Below are positions 6,316 to 18,162 of a stretch of 21,154 bases of DNA, one piece after another (the stretch's first letter is position 1; each line of letters begins with the position of its first letter). The translations under genes were made by a program, and so were the position numbers. The notes under the pieces were generated by a model. It worked only from the letters and a program-made list of their open reading frames with translations, was not told the origin of the DNA and searched no databases. This DNA is from a virus, in IMG/VR virus record IMGVR_UViG_3300035698_011869, positions 1-21,154 of that record; one strand, written 5' to 3'.

Positions 6316-8580
6316 CTAAATTCCTAGCCTTCCGGCATTACGTACCCATAACATTTGAGCATCTATCACAACTTGTTCTTTCTGAGCTTCACTATTCATT
6401 TGAGCGTTGCTTAGGGTATATTCTGTTGTTATCATATTAGCTCTGACCGGGCAGTGGATACGCTGCCATAGCTTATCTTGATTAGGTAGCAAGTCTGTAG
6501 TATCTGACGTGCTGACAGTAGAGTTGAAGAATGGATCAGCACTATTGTTAAGGACAGTGTTATCAGCATAGTCGCCGTATATCTTCAGGGTCATTTCTCC
6601 GCTCGTTGTCTTGGTGGTAAGAAGGTCTATGTATCCGAGTTGTATTTGCTGTCCTTCTTCTAGCCTGTTGAATTTCTTCGACACGATGCGGAAATTGTCT
6701 ACTATTCTAATCCTTCCATACCCAACAAATGTACCGGCTTCCGGTGGAACAGGTTCATCAAACTTCTCTGTCGTTGTGCTGTATGTAAAGATTTGGAAAG
6801 TGTCAGCATCGACCTTCGTTGTACGAAAGACAACACCATTAAGCGTTGTCGCAAACGCTGTACCTGATGGGATATTGCTTATTGAAATAATTGTGCTGTT
6901 GTTAAACCCGTGATTAACACTAGTCACTACCATCGTGTCACCAGTAGCGTCTATAGCTGAGATTGAAAACGCTTGTTTCTCTGTTGAGGCATCACTCAAG
7001 TTGGATATAAAGCCCTGTTGATTGCCTGCTATAATGGCAGGAAATTGGCTTTGTTGGTATATCCAAGGCCAATGTGCCTCAGCCCATGTAATGCCTTCAC
7101 AATCTGCCCAGGTTCTATCACTAAGAGTATAGAAATATCCTAATGATGTGTAGTGGTCTAAGAAAATAGACCAACTTTTATCTTCATAGTTGGCAACAAG
7201 CATGGCGTTGGGGAATTTTGAATCTTTGCTTGCGTCTGGATAGATCCAATATGCTAACCGCTTGGCATGATCCCGGATTCCATGTATTCGCAGTTGACCA
7301 TCAAAATCGTTGTTTGTCAGATAGAACACAAAATCTTGTATCTTGTCGTCTATCCTCTCTACTTTGAAAGAGTCGCATGAAACTATTCCTCTAGATCCAA
7401 CAGCTAGGATTTCAGAATCAAATTGAACGCTCCCTTTAGGAGACTTGCTGCCAAGTTCGCTATTTATCTTATCAAGTTGGTATGGAGCTAGAGCGTTACC
7501 TGTAAATCGTAACTGCCAAGTTGATCTTTCACAAAATATTACTAGGTTGTCACGGACAAAACCTGCTGAAACAATATGTTCTGATGTGGGTATATCAATA
7601 AAACCACCCTTACCACTGATATCATCACGCCATGAGTCAGTATTAAACGGAGAACCTATCTGCGAATATCTTATTCTTTGTGGATAATTTGCTGCTGTTG
7701 CAAGGCTAGCACCTTCAAATGTGTTCATTGTCAGAAGAGCACCCCTGAAAGGGATGATTATTCTAGACTGCCATAAGAAGTTAGAAGCTGCGTCGATTTC
7801 TGCTCTAACAGGAGCAACTGTTTTAGGAAGATCAGCCCATGTACTACCGTCGTAGTATTTTATATTGTCCCCTGATGTGCCTGAAAAGTTCGTCGCCCAG
7901 AAGATCTTTTTGTTGCTGGCATCTACGAACCAGTTAGTTGTCCAAAAAAAGTCGCTGTCGCTTCCACTCCATGTTGTAGGAACGGTACTAGCAAGCTCTA
8001 TCCATGCGTCTATTGAATATCGATAAGCATATTTTGTATCGAAAGCGATTGGCATCTCTATATTTTCGGAATCAAGCTCTCTAAGCTCATTAGCCATTGA
8101 TGGCAATGCCGGATAATAGTTGAAATCAGCTGTTATTGCTGCAGCACCACCGTATGCCGTGAAATTCAATGTAACAGCGCCAGTGGAATAGTTTATTGAT
8201 GAACCTGTAACGTCACCAGCTCCGGTTACTGCAAACGATCCATCGCCATTATCTGTAAACGTAGAAGCATTCGGTGCGGCTACAGTTATAATGAGCGATT
8301 TTGGTTGTATCTCAGCGTTTGGTTCTGTAGCAGCAAGAGCCAATACTGTAAAGATATTTAATGTCGTTGGGTCTGCCGACGTGTTTCCCAAAGATTGAGA
8401 AGTAAGAACACGTCGAAGTCTTCCAAGTAACCGGGCCGGTGTCTTTCTCCAGATCCTCTGGAATTTTAGATAAGCGTTTTGAAGAATAGGATAAGCGTCT
8501 TCAGGTAATAGAAATTCCTCGCGCTCTGTGACAAGCCCTGTCGTTGGTCCTAGTAACTTTACTGGGCTATAGCCTGCCAT
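6316..8580 (-). CDS. Large beta-rich tail hub or stabilisation protein
   Basis: I place the start at the ATG at 8580, which overlaps the upstream stop as TGATG, giving 754 residues; a TTG one codon earlier is possible but less likely. The opening (GPTTGLVTEREEFLLPEDAYPILQNAY) is typical of a conserved tail protein of short-tailed phages. Residues ~70-155 hold an Ig-like insertion (NGDGSFAVTGAG...INYSTGAVTLNFT). Residues ~300-400 contain repeated 'NLVIFCERSTWQLRF' and 'SRGIVSCDSFKVERI' strands like those of propeller-type hub proteins. Around residue 540-610, NHGFNN...LNGVVFRTTKV resembles the FCCH-type beta domain often found in phage virion proteins. Comparison with P22 gp10-like hub proteins is an inference from strand pattern and from its place just after the adaptor. 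Confidence 0.6.
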   Translation of the reverse strand: MAGYSPVKLLGPTTGLVTEREEFLLPEDAYPILQNAYLKFQRIWRKTPARLLGRLRRVLTSQSLGNTSADPTTLNIFTVLALAATEPNAEIQPKSLIITVAAPNASTFTDNGDGSFAVTGAGDVTGSSINYSTGAVTLNFTAYGGAAAITADFNYYPALPSMANELRELDSENIEMPIAFDTKYAYRYSIDAWIELASTVPTTWSGSDSDFFWTTNWFVDASNKKIFWATNFSGTSGDNIKYYDGSTWADLPKTVAPVRAEIDAASNFLWQSRIIIPFRGALLTMNTFEGASLATAANYPQRIRYSQIGSPFNTDSWRDDISGKGGFIDIPTSEHIVSAGFVRDNLVIFCERSTWQLRFTGNALAPYQLDKINSELGSKSPKGSVQFDSEILAVGSRGIVSCDSFKVERIDDKIQDFVFYLTNNDFDGQLRIHGIRDHAKRLAYWIYPDASKDSKFPNAMLVANYEDKSWSIFLDHYTSLGYFYTLSDRTWADCEGITWAEAHWPWIYQQSQFPAIIAGNQQGFISNLSDASTEKQAFSISAIDATGDTMVVTSVNHGFNNSTIISISNIPSGTAFATTLNGVVFRTTKVDADTFQIFTYSTTTEKFDEPVPPEAGTFVGYGRIRIVDNFRIVSKKFNRLEEGQQIQLGYIDLLTTKTTSGEMTLKIYGDYADNTVLNNSADPFFNSTVSTSDTTDLLPNQDKLWQRIHCPVRANMITTEYTLSNAQMNSEAQKEQVVIDAQMLWVRNAGRLGI

Positions 8581-9524
8581 CAATAGTTTCCATTATTTGA
8601 ATACGAATCGCATTCGCCTGAATATATTGTGTTGTTTCTTAATCCTATCTGTTCTGCAGACTGCCTTTCAAGAACGAGACCTCGCTGCTCTTCTAGCCAC
8701 GGGAGGACATTTTGTAACCCTTCCATATCTTGCCTATCTTGTAGCACTTTTACAGCAGCACCTAGAGCTAGTAGCTGATACCACTGATTCAATATCGGGG
8801 AGCCATCAGTTGCCATAAACTGCGTAGGTGTCAAGAAAGCTTCTACCTCGATGCGATATATTCCATCAGGAATAGGACGTACTGTAATCTCATCATTCCA
8901 AAAAAGGATGCTTAGAGGACGAGCAGCAATATATGGTCGTGCCCATACAATGATATCCTCTCCTGTAGCTGGAGCCGTCGTAAACGTTATTGAAAAAGAA
9001 CCAGCAGTATAGTCAACAACACCAATAATATCGGTTGTATCCGCAGTAAGTAGGTTTCCGTCACCATCGTCCGTGACTTTAATTGGATCCCCAGCAGCAT
9101 CAACCGTTCCTATTGTTATTGAACCAGGAGTAAAAGGCGTTCCTGTCAAAGTCCATATGAAAATAAGTGTTACACCATCTCCTAAAGAAGCAGTATAACG
9201 GCTCGTCTGTTTAGGCCAGTGATTGAAAAAAGCTGATCTATCACGGTAAAAACCGCATTCACGCCCCTCTACATACGTCGGAGACCGAAGCCCCTGATAT
9301 TTGTTAAGATCGACGCTGTAAGTATCAACATTCGGAGACGTAAAAAATTCGTACACCGTACGCAACTGATCCAACTTGCAAGAGGATGGAAAGTCTTGCG
9401 AATAATATGTGTTGATGTACATATCAATGTCATCATTTGACAATTGTGAAGTGTGAGGTGAAGCGGTTAAACGCCTCACCTTCTTACGAATCGCCACTAA
9501 TGTTGAGTCAGCCTGTGCAACCAT
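8580..9524 (-). CDS. Head-tail adaptor or upper neck protein
   Basis: 314 residues, starting at an ATG that overlaps the upstream TAA (CTAATGG). The N-terminal helices carry VAIRKKVRRLTASPHTSQLS then DDIDMYINTYYSQDFP, a pattern found in adaptor-like proteins of uncultured podoviruses. Residues ~115-195 are a beta-sandwich insertion with DDGDGNLL...GVVDYTAGSFSITFTTAP, related in pattern to the insertion in the next gene downstream. The C-terminal part returns to helix (QWYQLLALGAAVKVLQDRQD...LEEQR). It lies between the capsid genes and the large hub protein, the expected place for a portal-binding adaptor. Family membership is by pattern recognition. Confidence 0.6.
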   Translation of the reverse strand: MVAQADSTLVAIRKKVRRLTASPHTSQLSNDDIDMYINTYYSQDFPSSCKLDQLRTVYEFFTSPNVDTYSVDLNKYQGLRSPTYVEGRECGFYRDRSAFFNHWPKQTSRYTASLGDGVTLIFIWTLTGTPFTPGSITIGTVDAAGDPIKVTDDGDGNLLTADTTDIIGVVDYTAGSFSITFTTAPATGEDIIVWARPYIAARPLSILFWNDEITVRPIPDGIYRIEVEAFLTPTQFMATDGSPILNQWYQLLALGAAVKVLQDRQDMEGLQNVLPWLEEQRGLVLERQSAEQIGLRNNTIYSGECDSYSNNGNY

Positions 9525-15918: not shown

Positions 15919-18162
15919 TTAAAAATAGGAACCACCCATCATCATTGAATTTAGTGACTCGTCTCCAAAAGCTAGCTGCCGTCGTTGGGCTAGGGACAGC
16001 TCCTCGTTGTGTGTCGAAATTTCCCCATCTTGGAATGTTGAATAGATAAGATAGCGAAGTGCGTCACAATTGCAAACAAGTATCCCGTTTGCAAAGTATT
16101 CGTGTTCGTCTTCAACTTCTAGGTTGTAGACTTCTTTTTCTTCTGTTTTCTGCTCTATAAACGACTGAGCATTTTCTTGAACACAGTTTTTGGCTATAGA
16201 ATTTATTGACAACATAGGTTTTGCCACACAAAACACACTCTCTCTCTTCGTTGTCATCTCCTCTTTTTCTTCTATTTTTAGCTCTACAGTTGTGCGAACA
16301 AAAGTTAACATGTCCCGTATGTCTGCTGCCAAAAGTTTTAAAGCATTCTTTACATTCGAAAATCCTTTCTTCTCTATTTTTCCAAAATTCCTTGGAAATT
16401 CTGCTTTGTTTAATCTTCCCCTCTTCTCCCTTATGCCACTCTGCTGCTTTTCGTCTTGCATGTTCCACTTCAACAAGGTGTTTTTTTGCATGGGATGATT
16501 TTGACAAGCACTCGAGGTTTGAAATATCGTTGTTTGCTGTGTCCCCATCGATATGATGTACTTGATACCCGTTTGGTATTTTTCCGTTATAAAATTCCCA
16601 AACATCCCTATTAATGAAAAAATACTTTGTTTTTTTGTTGAGTTTTTCCTCTCTCTTGAAATAGTTTCTGTGCGCTCTGTGTCTACTTTCTGGGTATCTC
16701 TTGTATTCTTTTTTGTTAAAAACTTGGATTTCTGTTTTTTTAGACATCTCTCACCTTTTCTTGTGACAAATATCGTAGTATATCCTTGTACATTTTTTAA
16801 ATCAACAAAACCTTCCCCTGTCCAAATTGGATGGTTTCCAGTGCCAACAAGCTCCATGTCATCAGCTTTTAATTCCCAAATATCACTTGATTTATGGGAC
16901 ATTGTTGCGGTCACTTTCTTGTAACCTTGCCTAGTTAAAACATTTTCGCCCACGACGATTGATTCAATCGGTTTGTTACCACTTTCTGCGGTTACTAAAG
17001 TTCCAGCGATAAAACACGCATGGTCATTGGTCTTAACGGGAACATCTTTACCTTTTAGTGAAGCCTTGTTATCCCAACTATAAGTATGCATCTCATTTAT
17101 GAGGTTTTCACAACATTTGTTTATGACAATATTTTTATGAGCTAGGAATTTCTGCGTCACCCTGATACCTGGGATAACGTCGTGTTTAGCATCGACAACA
17201 GGAAGGTCTCTGCGTAGCAGCTCAATCTTTAAGCTGGCGGCTGCTGGGTCTATGTACAGAGCCTCTATTGGTTTCCAGCCGATAAACTCCTTTATGTCGT
17301 CTGCGAGTTCAGCGTCGCTCTTCTGTCTACCTGCCGCTAGGCTTGAGTAGTAATACTCGTCCTCTATGTGAATCTGTGGCCACTGCTTAGGAGATACGCC
17401 AGCTATTACACATGCTGTCGGGTTAGTGGTGCCATAGTCTATGCCAGCAACCCAGTAGTTCGGCTGGGGATAATCACCAGTATAGAAGTTGTCGTCATCA
17501 AAACCCTCGAAAACAAGTCCTGTCGCAATCGCCCATTCACCTAGGATGTACCTTTTATACCACATGCCAGAGAGGTATTCAGCTTTCAGGCTGTCGACAT
17601 AGTCTTTCGTTAAGATTGGGTTGTCTTCTAAGATGAAATGCCATGTCTTGAGGTCAAGTTCATGCTCTCTGTCTATGAATCTCTTCTTCAGCCAGTGTAG
17701 CGGGGACTCTGGATTGCAGGTAGCTAAAAGTTGGGCGCCAGGAACACTAAGTCGTGATAACAGCATGTTCCAAAATGGCTCGGGTATTGACGTGGCCTCG
17801 TCAACATATGCTAACGCTAGCGTTGCCCCTTGGATTCGCCTTACACTAGACTCGTCGTTGGCGCCCACAAAATAGGTTGATCTTCCTAGTAAAACGCATT
17901 CTGATGTTTTAGATCCCGGTATCTTAGCACCTAGGAGCGGGAAGAGCTCCATTACTATGTTGCGCTGTATGCTGTCTCTTGTCACCCCTACAAACATAAC
18001 AGGACCAGGAGGGCCGTTTAGGTAGAGGTCTATTATCTTTAGGATAGACGAGAATGTCTTTCCTGATCTAACTGCGCCCTGCCATATGTTTATTCTAGCT
18101 GTCGCTTCCCTGAAGGCTATCGACTGCTTGAGGCTCATCGGACGATTTTTTTGATCGCTCAT
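15919..18162 (-). CDS. terL: Terminase large subunit interrupted by an intein
   Basis: The ORF has 747 residues; removing the intein (383-698) leaves a 431-residue TerL of normal length. TerL is the ATPase and nuclease motor that cuts and packages phage DNA. Visible motifs: Walker A GAVRSGKT (29-36), Walker B LALAYVDE (115-122), coupling motif ATCN (147-150), nuclease acidic residues at GIDYG (Asp242) and YIDPAA (Asp305), and the third at HAC/DALRYL, which is split by the intein and restored by splicing. The ATG at 18162 overlaps terS by 68 bases. Until the intein is removed, the third nuclease aspartate is displaced by 316 residues, so an unspliced precursor should be inactive. The terminase call is very safe. 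Confidence 0.95.
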   Translation of the reverse strand: MSDQKNRPMSLKQSIAFREATARINIWQGAVRSGKTFSSILKIIDLYLNGPPGPVMFVGVTRDSIQRNIVMELFPLLGAKIPGSKTSECVLLGRSTYFVGANDESSVRRIQGATLALAYVDEATSIPEPFWNMLLSRLSVPGAQLLATCNPESPLHWLKKRFIDREHELDLKTWHFILEDNPILTKDYVDSLKAEYLSGMWYKRYILGEWAIATGLVFEGFDDDNFYTGDYPQPNYWVAGIDYGTTNPTACVIAGVSPKQWPQIHIEDEYYYSSLAAGRQKSDAELADDIKEFIGWKPIEALYIDPAAASLKIELLRRDLPVVDAKHDVIPGIRVTQKFLAHKNIVINKCCENLINEMHTYSWDNKASLKGKDVPVKTNDHACFIAGTLVTAESGNKPIESIVVGENVLTRQGYKKVTATMSHKSSDIWELKADDMELVGTGNHPIWTGEGFVDLKNVQGYTTIFVTRKGERCLKKQKSKFLTKKNTRDTQKVDTERTETISRERKNSTKKQSIFSLIGMFGNFITEKYQTGIKYIISMGTQQTTIFQTSSACQNHPMQKNTLLKWNMQDEKQQSGIREKRGRLNKAEFPRNFGKIEKKGFSNVKNALKLLAADIRDMLTFVRTTVELKIEEKEEMTTKRESVFCVAKPMLSINSIAKNCVQENAQSFIEQKTEEKEVYNLEVEDEHEYFANGILVCNCDALRYLIYSTFQDGEISTHNEELSLAQRRQLAFGDESLNSMMMGGSYF
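16112..16747 (-). CDS. HNH homing endonuclease encoded in the -1 frame inside the intein
   Basis: 211 residues, fully contained in the intein DNA but in a different frame from terL. The HNH motif spans about residues 62-90: QVHHIDGDTANNDISNL then SSHAKKH, with the His pair at 64-65, Asn73, Asn77 and His86/His90. Two similar zinc-finger-like units follow, C132-x2-C135...C150-x3-C154 and C171-x2-C174...C189-x3-C193, each ending in an Arg/Lys-rich N-R-R-K-R tail suited to DNA binding. The ATG has AGGTGA three bases upstream, and a TGA lies two codons upstream in the same frame, so this is a separate cistron. It probably cuts intein-less terL alleles. Its last six codons overlap those for intein block F. 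Confidence 0.88.
   Translation of the reverse strand: MSKKTEIQVFNKKEYKRYPESRHRAHRNYFKREEKLNKKTKYFFINRDVWEFYNGKIPNGYQVHHIDGDTANNDISNLECLSKSSHAKKHLVEVEHARRKAAEWHKGEEGKIKQSRISKEFWKNREERIFECKECFKTFGSRHTGHVNFCSHNCRAKNRRKRGDDNEERECVLCGKTYVVNKFYSQKLCSRKCSVVYRAENRRKRSLQPRS
16735..16756 (-). promoter_or_regulatory. Internal ribosome-binding site and A7 slippery run at the start of the nested HNH gene
   Basis: On the minus strand AGGTGA (16756-16751) pairs with the 16S tail and lies three bases before ATG (16747), the same spacing as at the second ATG of the capsid gene. Seven A residues (16741-16735) follow. In the terL frame they read CTA AAA AAA CAG, a slippery A AAA AAA heptamer. A -1 slip would continue ACA GAA in the HNH frame. 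AGGTGA lies nine bases upstream of the run, like the stimulatory site in dnaX-type frameshifting. Internal initiation is the simpler reading. Confidence 0.6.

Follow-up and report, generated by a model that had tools for sequence, protein, structure and literature searches.

How can one stretch of phage DNA keep an essential gene open from end to end while a second reading frame of the same bases encodes a complete endonuclease? Inteins are bifunctional proteins in which the endonuclease sits inside the splicing polypeptide. Here we analyzed a terminase gene, terL, whose intein overlaps an HNH endonuclease ORF in another frame. The window, meaning the whole stretch of DNA that was analyzed, is a 21,154-base IMG/VR record from a tailed phage and covers its packaging and structural region, with PHROG matches to portal, major head, and tail genes downstream. 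Among the tail-region genes, a 755-aa ORF at 6316-8583 had no PHROG match at E 1e-5. The features of the terL locus are as follows:

15919 to 18162, minus strand: terL ORF, encoding the terminase large subunit and, in frame, an intein (747 aa, open throughout)
16069 to 17016, minus strand: intein of 316 aa at the nuclease motif DHA|C...N|CDALRY (profile matches, AlphaFold HINT fold)
16762 to 17016, minus strand: N-terminal splicing half of the intein, with Cys1, blocks A and B, and TGNH at 16831-16842 (IntN HMM, E=3e-29)
16186 to 16761, minus strand: linker in the terL frame, Lys/Thr/Gln-rich and mostly the out-of-frame shadow of the HNH gene (predicted disordered)
16069 to 16185, minus strand: C-terminal splicing half of the intein, with blocks F and G and the terminal Asn (IntC HMM, E=8e-21; pLDDT 81-96)
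16750 to 16757, minus strand: Shine-Dalgarno-like AAGGTGAG, two bases before the HNH ATG and within the coding sequence of the intein N-half (read from the sequence)
16112 to 16747, minus strand: HNH endonuclease ORF, 211 aa, in the -1 frame relative to terL (HNH_3 PF13392, E=4e-17; phrog_15471, 2e-32)
16487 to 16603, minus strand: HNH_3 catalytic motif HHID....NN...NL...H (PF13392 match)
16286 to 16354, minus strand: first Cys4 unit, C132, C135, C150, and C154 (invariant or nearly invariant alignment columns)
16169 to 16237, minus strand: second Cys4 unit, C171, C174, C189, and C193 (nearly invariant alignment columns)

The identity of the host gene was supported by several terminase families (TIGR01547 phage_term_2, E=6e-48; PF03237, 4e-10; PF04466, 1e-9; phrog_2, 5e-60). 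In the window, terL is one open frame, and the host gene is not broken in two as it would be in a split intein or a fractured gene. The intein runs from Cys1 at 17016 to Asn316 at 16069 and is followed by Cys+1, and its joined flanks, DHA|CDALRY, make up the TerL nuclease motif. Matches to the TerL proteins of other phages mostly stopped at residue 382-383, which places the insertion in a conserved host motif and shows that it is absent from these homologues. Intein profiles matched as well: the Pfam families Intein_splicing and Hint_2 (PF14890, 7e-5, and PF13403, 2e-5) scored below their curated cut-offs yet significantly, and the TIGR01443 intein C-terminus match (4e-5) exceeded its own. We also considered whether dual-coded inteins occur in rtcB, on the basis of an NCBIfam RtcB_rel_intein match; that match spans the intein C-terminus, and when four genomes plus controls were searched for the family, no support emerged.

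Both ORFs lie where the original prediction had placed them, and the HNH ORF is complete and offset by -1 from terL. It is not in the frame of the splicing blocks, as an endonuclease carried in frame by its intein would be, and its overlap with block F comes to 20 nt, or the six codons or so that had been proposed. The PF13392 match scored 62 bits against a curated cut-off of 24.8, residues H64, H65, N72, N73, N77, H86, and H90 were invariant in the HNH alignment, and the pattern HHxD..NN..NL was intact in 113 of 127 relatives embedded in an intein in the same manner. The two Cys4 units that had been read from the window were likewise conserved among relatives. An AlphaFold model of the HNH protein had a mean pLDDT of 96, with the HNH homing endonuclease I-HmuI as its best PDB match (E 0.012). 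The HNH protein is thus probably a DNA-cutting enzyme that spreads the intein, as judged from its sequence and family.

Relatives were gathered by HNH similarity from viral contigs, annotated phages, and prokaryote genomes and, independently, by the 26-aa C-terminal block of the intein only; the parts and their frames were placed by profile HMMs for both intein halves and for the HNH. In a non-redundant set of 157 HNH loci, differing by more than 5%, 127 (the window and at least 126 others) carried the HNH out of frame inside a continuous terL intein, a share that, like those that follow, is not valid for all inteins because loci were picked for their resemblance to the HNH or to block F/G. 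None of the 157 had the HNH in frame with the intein. The host frame was at HNH +1, the arrangement of the window, at 125 loci and at +2 at two (L012 and L101). A further nine had the HNH between intein N and C halves that no open frame links (split-like), 19 had an HNH without an intein, mostly beside terL, and two were cut by contig ends. The search by C-terminal block alone returned 76 complete inteins, comprising 71 whose HNH occupies the same overlapping frame, two eroded inteins, and three mini-inteins, and none of the 76 had an in-frame HNH. Homologues in which one of the frames is routinely broken, which the original prediction had named as evidence against itself, did not appear: the host frame was unbroken in all 127 continuous inteins, the HNH was lost only in the two eroded inteins and the three mini-inteins, and host continuity was lost only in the split-like minority.

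The same arrangement was present in the GenBank phage genomes Highwayman, Tetrasphaera phage TJE1, and MD07, in which only TerL is annotated at the locus. A scan of prokaryote genome contigs with a narrow HNH alignment gave four loci, one of them embedded (L103, the same element as L005) and one split-like. The N-exteins of the hosts matched at least nine PHROG terminase families, and insertion occurred at several TerL sites, including the DH..DALRY motif and DFGF|C. Within this collection, the comparison of loci shows that the dual-frame arrangement is a stable one and occurs widely among phage terL inteins. Terminase genes also adjoined most of the HNHs found outside inteins, which suggests that homing is directed at terL, in the manner of collaborative or intronless homing (PMC10448857).

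Several individual loci differ from the common form. At L012:1659-2552 and L101:3113-4048, the two loci with the HNH at +2, the host frame has no stops against an expectation of 11 and 13; these loci are neighbors on the HNH tree (support 89). The split-like terL inteins with an HNH between the halves are L003, L018 (Lactobacillus phage CL2), L037, L038, L044, L047, L055, L098, and L104, and these nine are candidates for new natural split inteins. At L159:2405-3406, the HNH is in the usual frame and a 198-aa open stretch occupies the third, so that three frames are open, probably as a result of composition.

The computed duplex of AAGGTGAG with the 16S 3' end had an energy of -6.0 kcal/mol. 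Among 75 embedded relatives, the best HNH start was predicted to pair with 16S at -5 kcal/mol or better in 53, a count that is favored by choosing the best of several starts, and the start nearest the profile start still gave 37 of 62. By comparison, 15.7% of 229 internal start-like codons reached the same value. The site was weak in two of the 127 embedded loci and in about a third of the rest. It is also conceivable that ribosomes translating terL undergo programmed frameshifting into the -1 frame and so make a TerL-IntN-HNH fusion in place of a protein with its own start. Such a mechanism needs a nearly constant offset, as is found (125/127), but the fixed offset has a simpler cause. In non-embedded HNH genes, the +2 frame had several times more stops than the +1 frame (for example, 26-39 versus 5-15 in AT-rich loci); the +1 frame would therefore be easier to clear of stops, which could account for the offset without frameshifting. 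Moreover, two loci use the other frame, start codons are present at all embedded HNH loci, and the frequency of strong Shine-Dalgarno sites stands well above that of internal start-like codons. We therefore regard a frameshift fusion as unlikely. The HNH is probably translated off the terL mRNA from its own internal ribosome-binding site, and with a Shine-Dalgarno-like site before its start, here and in most relatives, it is plausible that its expression is uncoupled from splicing.

The terL frame of the same DNA encodes the splicing domain. AlphaFold modeled the HINT fold confidently over intein residues 1-80 (pLDDT 91-97 per 10-residue block) and 280-316, with blocks of 34-67 for most of the length of the linker. 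The HINT model superposed on the gp41-1 intein at Z 20.3 and 1.3 Å over 122 residues, and RecA inteins also reached Z about 20. Cys1 was present in 73 of 75 relatives (automatic table), and in block B, where the TxxH motif reads TGNH, T59 was nearly invariant and H62 invariant in the alignment of relatives. These features bear on the proposal that the insert is an inert, disordered TerL loop that does not splice, as has been put forward for the methylase insert of ShiLan, a published precedent for an unspliced out-of-frame HNH insert (PMC11855218). A residue that would fit such a loop is the penultimate one of the window's intein (16069-16074), which is Cys and not the block G His that inteins usually, though not universally, have. 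Against an inert loop, Cys1, TxxH, the terminal Asn, and Cys+1 are present and conserved, the model matches solved inteins at Z about 20, and an unspliced 316-aa insert in the TerL nuclease motif should be harmful. An inert loop is accordingly quite improbable, and from the intact splicing blocks and the confident HINT model we infer that the terL intein excises itself after translation, leaving a TerL predicted at 431 aa. Among the relatives, the penultimate residue was His in 51 of 75 and Ser in 15 of 75, so this intein lineage often lacks the His that block G usually has.

The two overlapping frames are under unequal constraint. When the synonymous codons of the window's own HNH were permuted, 2.3 terL-frame stops were expected (P(0)=0.04), a conservative value because the codon usage of this HNH is already purged; when the codon usage was instead that of non-embedded relatives with a similar GC content, 5.6 stops were expected (P(0)=0.00045). 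The original prediction had put the chance of such an overlap at about 5 in 100,000. The overlap is indeed unlikely by chance, and it is the estimate itself that proved crude. The comparison among relatives is decisive. Across 126 non-redundant embedded loci, synonymous-codon permutation predicted 350.0 host-frame stops and none was found. These loci share ancestry, and a pooled probability overstates their independence and is not to be taken literally, but the first set of 75 by itself forms 66 clusters at 70% HNH identity. Matched controls fell on expectation, with 131 stops versus 133.7 expected in free-standing HNHs and 68 versus 63.3 in split-like loci. The proposed selection for a readable TerL is thus borne out by stop avoidance across many homologues. 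Embedded HNHs also avoid Met followed by Met, Ile, Lys, Asn, or Thr, residues whose codons begin with A, because this pair forces a stop in the host frame: it followed 0 of 197 Met in embedded proteins versus 20 of 65 in others (Fisher p=6e-14). The stop-purging constraint reaches the HNH protein sequence.

We found no sign of selection in the terL frame of the overlap, such as a functional linker should show, when positional divergence was compared between embedded and control pairs. At identities of 0.35-0.40, divergence by HNH codon position was 0.496/0.443/0.653 in embedded pairs and 0.483/0.451/0.661 in controls, and other bins were similar. HNH third positions are host second positions, and host amino acids therefore change as if only the HNH mattered. 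In addition, the TerL exteins of two loci, L157 and L182, agree at 381 of 383 positions (99.5%), and their inteins differ almost only by one in-frame 134-codon (402-nt) deletion, which removes most of the HNH. This deletion implies that the linker is dispensable and that loss of the HNH can keep the host frame. The suggestion that the TerL-frame stretch is unselected has thus gained three supports: divergence as in free-standing HNHs, disorder in the model, and removal by a natural deletion. By the same measures, what the terL frame encodes in the overlap is a linker that can be dispensed with and is predicted to be disordered. The codon comparisons show that the HNH frame keeps its amino-acid sequence and that the terL frame need only stay stop-free.

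These results also weigh on the view that the terL intein alone matters and that the HNH ORF is open merely by chance or is the remains of a gene. By its own codon usage, the overlap in the window is only moderately unlikely (P=0.04), but the HNH_3 match (E=4e-17), the pLDDT of 96, the catalytic pattern in 113 of 127 embedded relatives, and a codon-position divergence typical of a protein under purifying selection make this view very improbable. Sequencing or assembly indels that shifted an ordinary in-frame HNH intein out of frame can be practically dismissed even though the loci are mostly metagenomic contigs, given the same offset in 125 non-redundant loci and none in frame, the purging of stops from the host frame, and the presence of the arrangement in named GenBank phages.

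Together, these results support a mobile terL intein whose splicing and homing functions are encoded in overlapping frames of the same DNA, a reading to which we assign a probability of roughly 0.88 and which has five parts. In the terL frame, the intein, whose HINT domain consists of two halves with a long disordered linker between them, would excise itself in cis after translation. Within the linker, the -1 frame would give rise, from an internal ribosome-binding site, to a free-standing HNH homing endonuclease. This enzyme would cut intein-less terL at the insertion site, and recombination would copy the intein in; cutting and homing at terL are deduced from the HNH family and from relatives beside empty terL. 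Selection acts unequally, maintaining the HNH amino-acid sequence and, in the terL frame, only an absence of stops. Finally, the arrangement is a stable and common one among phage terL inteins, and it has relatives in other states: free-standing HNHs by terL, split-like inteins whose halves flank an HNH, eroded inteins, and mini-inteins.

Neighboring states can be seen in pairs of natural variants. At locus L002 the terL site is empty (KYSH|IHDSLQY) and a free-standing HNH follows immediately downstream, and L007 has an intein at exactly this site. The TerL proteins of the two are 75% identical over 165 aligned residues, and the embedded HNH of L007 is the sister of that of L002 (60% identity). 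A short 'VYNM' after the free-standing HNH of L002, considered as a remnant of block F, was too short to be of use. L111, with an eroded intein and an HNH remnant, and L116, with a mini-intein, have TerL proteins 53% and 51% identical to that of the window over the aligned stretches. Compact terL mini-inteins, some 135-145 aa long and akin to the dual-coded inteins, were found at L113:3689-4093, L114:2722-3156, and L116:644-1060 and are possible protein-splicing tools. At L050:2400-3720, an HNH lies beside an intein-less terL and is followed by a second, diverged TerL tail (DAMRYACMWAESSSKGVYV versus DALRYACMFVERQSEGVFV), which sits in the frame that is open through the HNH; this tail copy is possibly a relic of a former dual-coded intein.

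The free-standing, split-like, eroded, and mini states are all observed, and the order among them is a matter of interpretation. On the HNH tree (unrooted, with 68 of 150 inner branches open), the states mix, with 15 changes versus a minimum of three, and because many forks are weakly supported and there is no root, gain and loss are not separable on this tree. As one possible origin, the original prediction had a nuclease gene invading a mini-intein out of frame. HNHs beside intein-less terL fit such an invasion, and the tree gives it no direction. In our preferred order, a mini-intein would have captured a free-standing HNH beside terL, the host frame would next have been cleared of stops, and the element would then have eroded to a mini-intein or broken up into a split intein.

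How does this arrangement compare with known systems? In inteins with in-frame endonucleases such as PI-SceI and PI-PfuI, the HINT domain is interrupted between blocks B and F, as in the window, but the endonuclease is a domain of the same polypeptide, whereas in the window it would be a separate protein in another frame. Fractured genes, in which phage split inteins have an endonuclease gene in the gap, were reportedly described by Dassa et al. in 2009, a study cited in PMC10448857. The nine split-like relatives resemble them in that intein halves flank an endonuclease gene, and gp41-1 is the solved fold closest to the window; in contrast, the host frame of the window and 126 relatives is unbroken, and splicing would occur in cis. 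In collaborative or intronless homing, free-standing endonucleases lie beside their target gene (PMC10448857). The HNH relatives that adjoin an intein-less terL are similar, and the HNH of the window differs in lying inside the intein and overlapping its coding frame. TerL inteins are common in mycobacteriophages (PMC5050341).

The closest published precedent is the 'hidden' HNH of the ShiLan domain, which is encoded out of frame within the DNA methylase gene of a phage (Arsenault, Gosselin, Gogarten 2025, PMC11855218). Like the window, ShiLan has an alternate-frame HNH of about 200 aa in a phage host gene that has no host-frame stop, with flanking zinc-finger units, and I-HmuI is the best PDB match in both. 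Unlike the window, ShiLan has no splicing domain, its methylase host is non-essential, and no Shine-Dalgarno site was detected (PMC11855218). The HNH of the window, by contrast, lies within a complete HINT intein in the essential terL gene, and stop avoidance extends across 126 loci. A search for work on out-of-frame endonucleases within inteins found, among the papers it covered, only the ShiLan study. That paper cites, for overlapping frames, a 2025 actinophage intein preprint with 'non-canonical architecture' in its title, which, going by this title and the citation, may describe inteins with out-of-frame endonucleases and so may contain the arrangement. The odds are about even, in our judgment, that inteins of this dual-frame kind, with homing and splicing encoded by overlapping genes, represent an architecture of their own that is widespread and has not been described before. 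It would be the form that one lineage of phage terL inteins usually takes, and it would be a natural bridge between free-standing endonucleases, cis inteins, and split inteins.

In such an intein, the two functions would share DNA and not protein, and the nuclease, with no need to fold within the splicing domain, could have its own expression, evolution, and action. A frameshift in the HNH, on the other hand, would disrupt an essential host gene as well. The nuclease escapes annotation pipelines, as in Highwayman, TJE1, and MD07. The relatives form a large natural set for studying the constraint of one frame on another, in which even the dipeptides of the HNH are altered. The dual-frame intein would also offer a direct path, open to testing, by which a free-standing homing gene becomes an intein and the intein a split intein.
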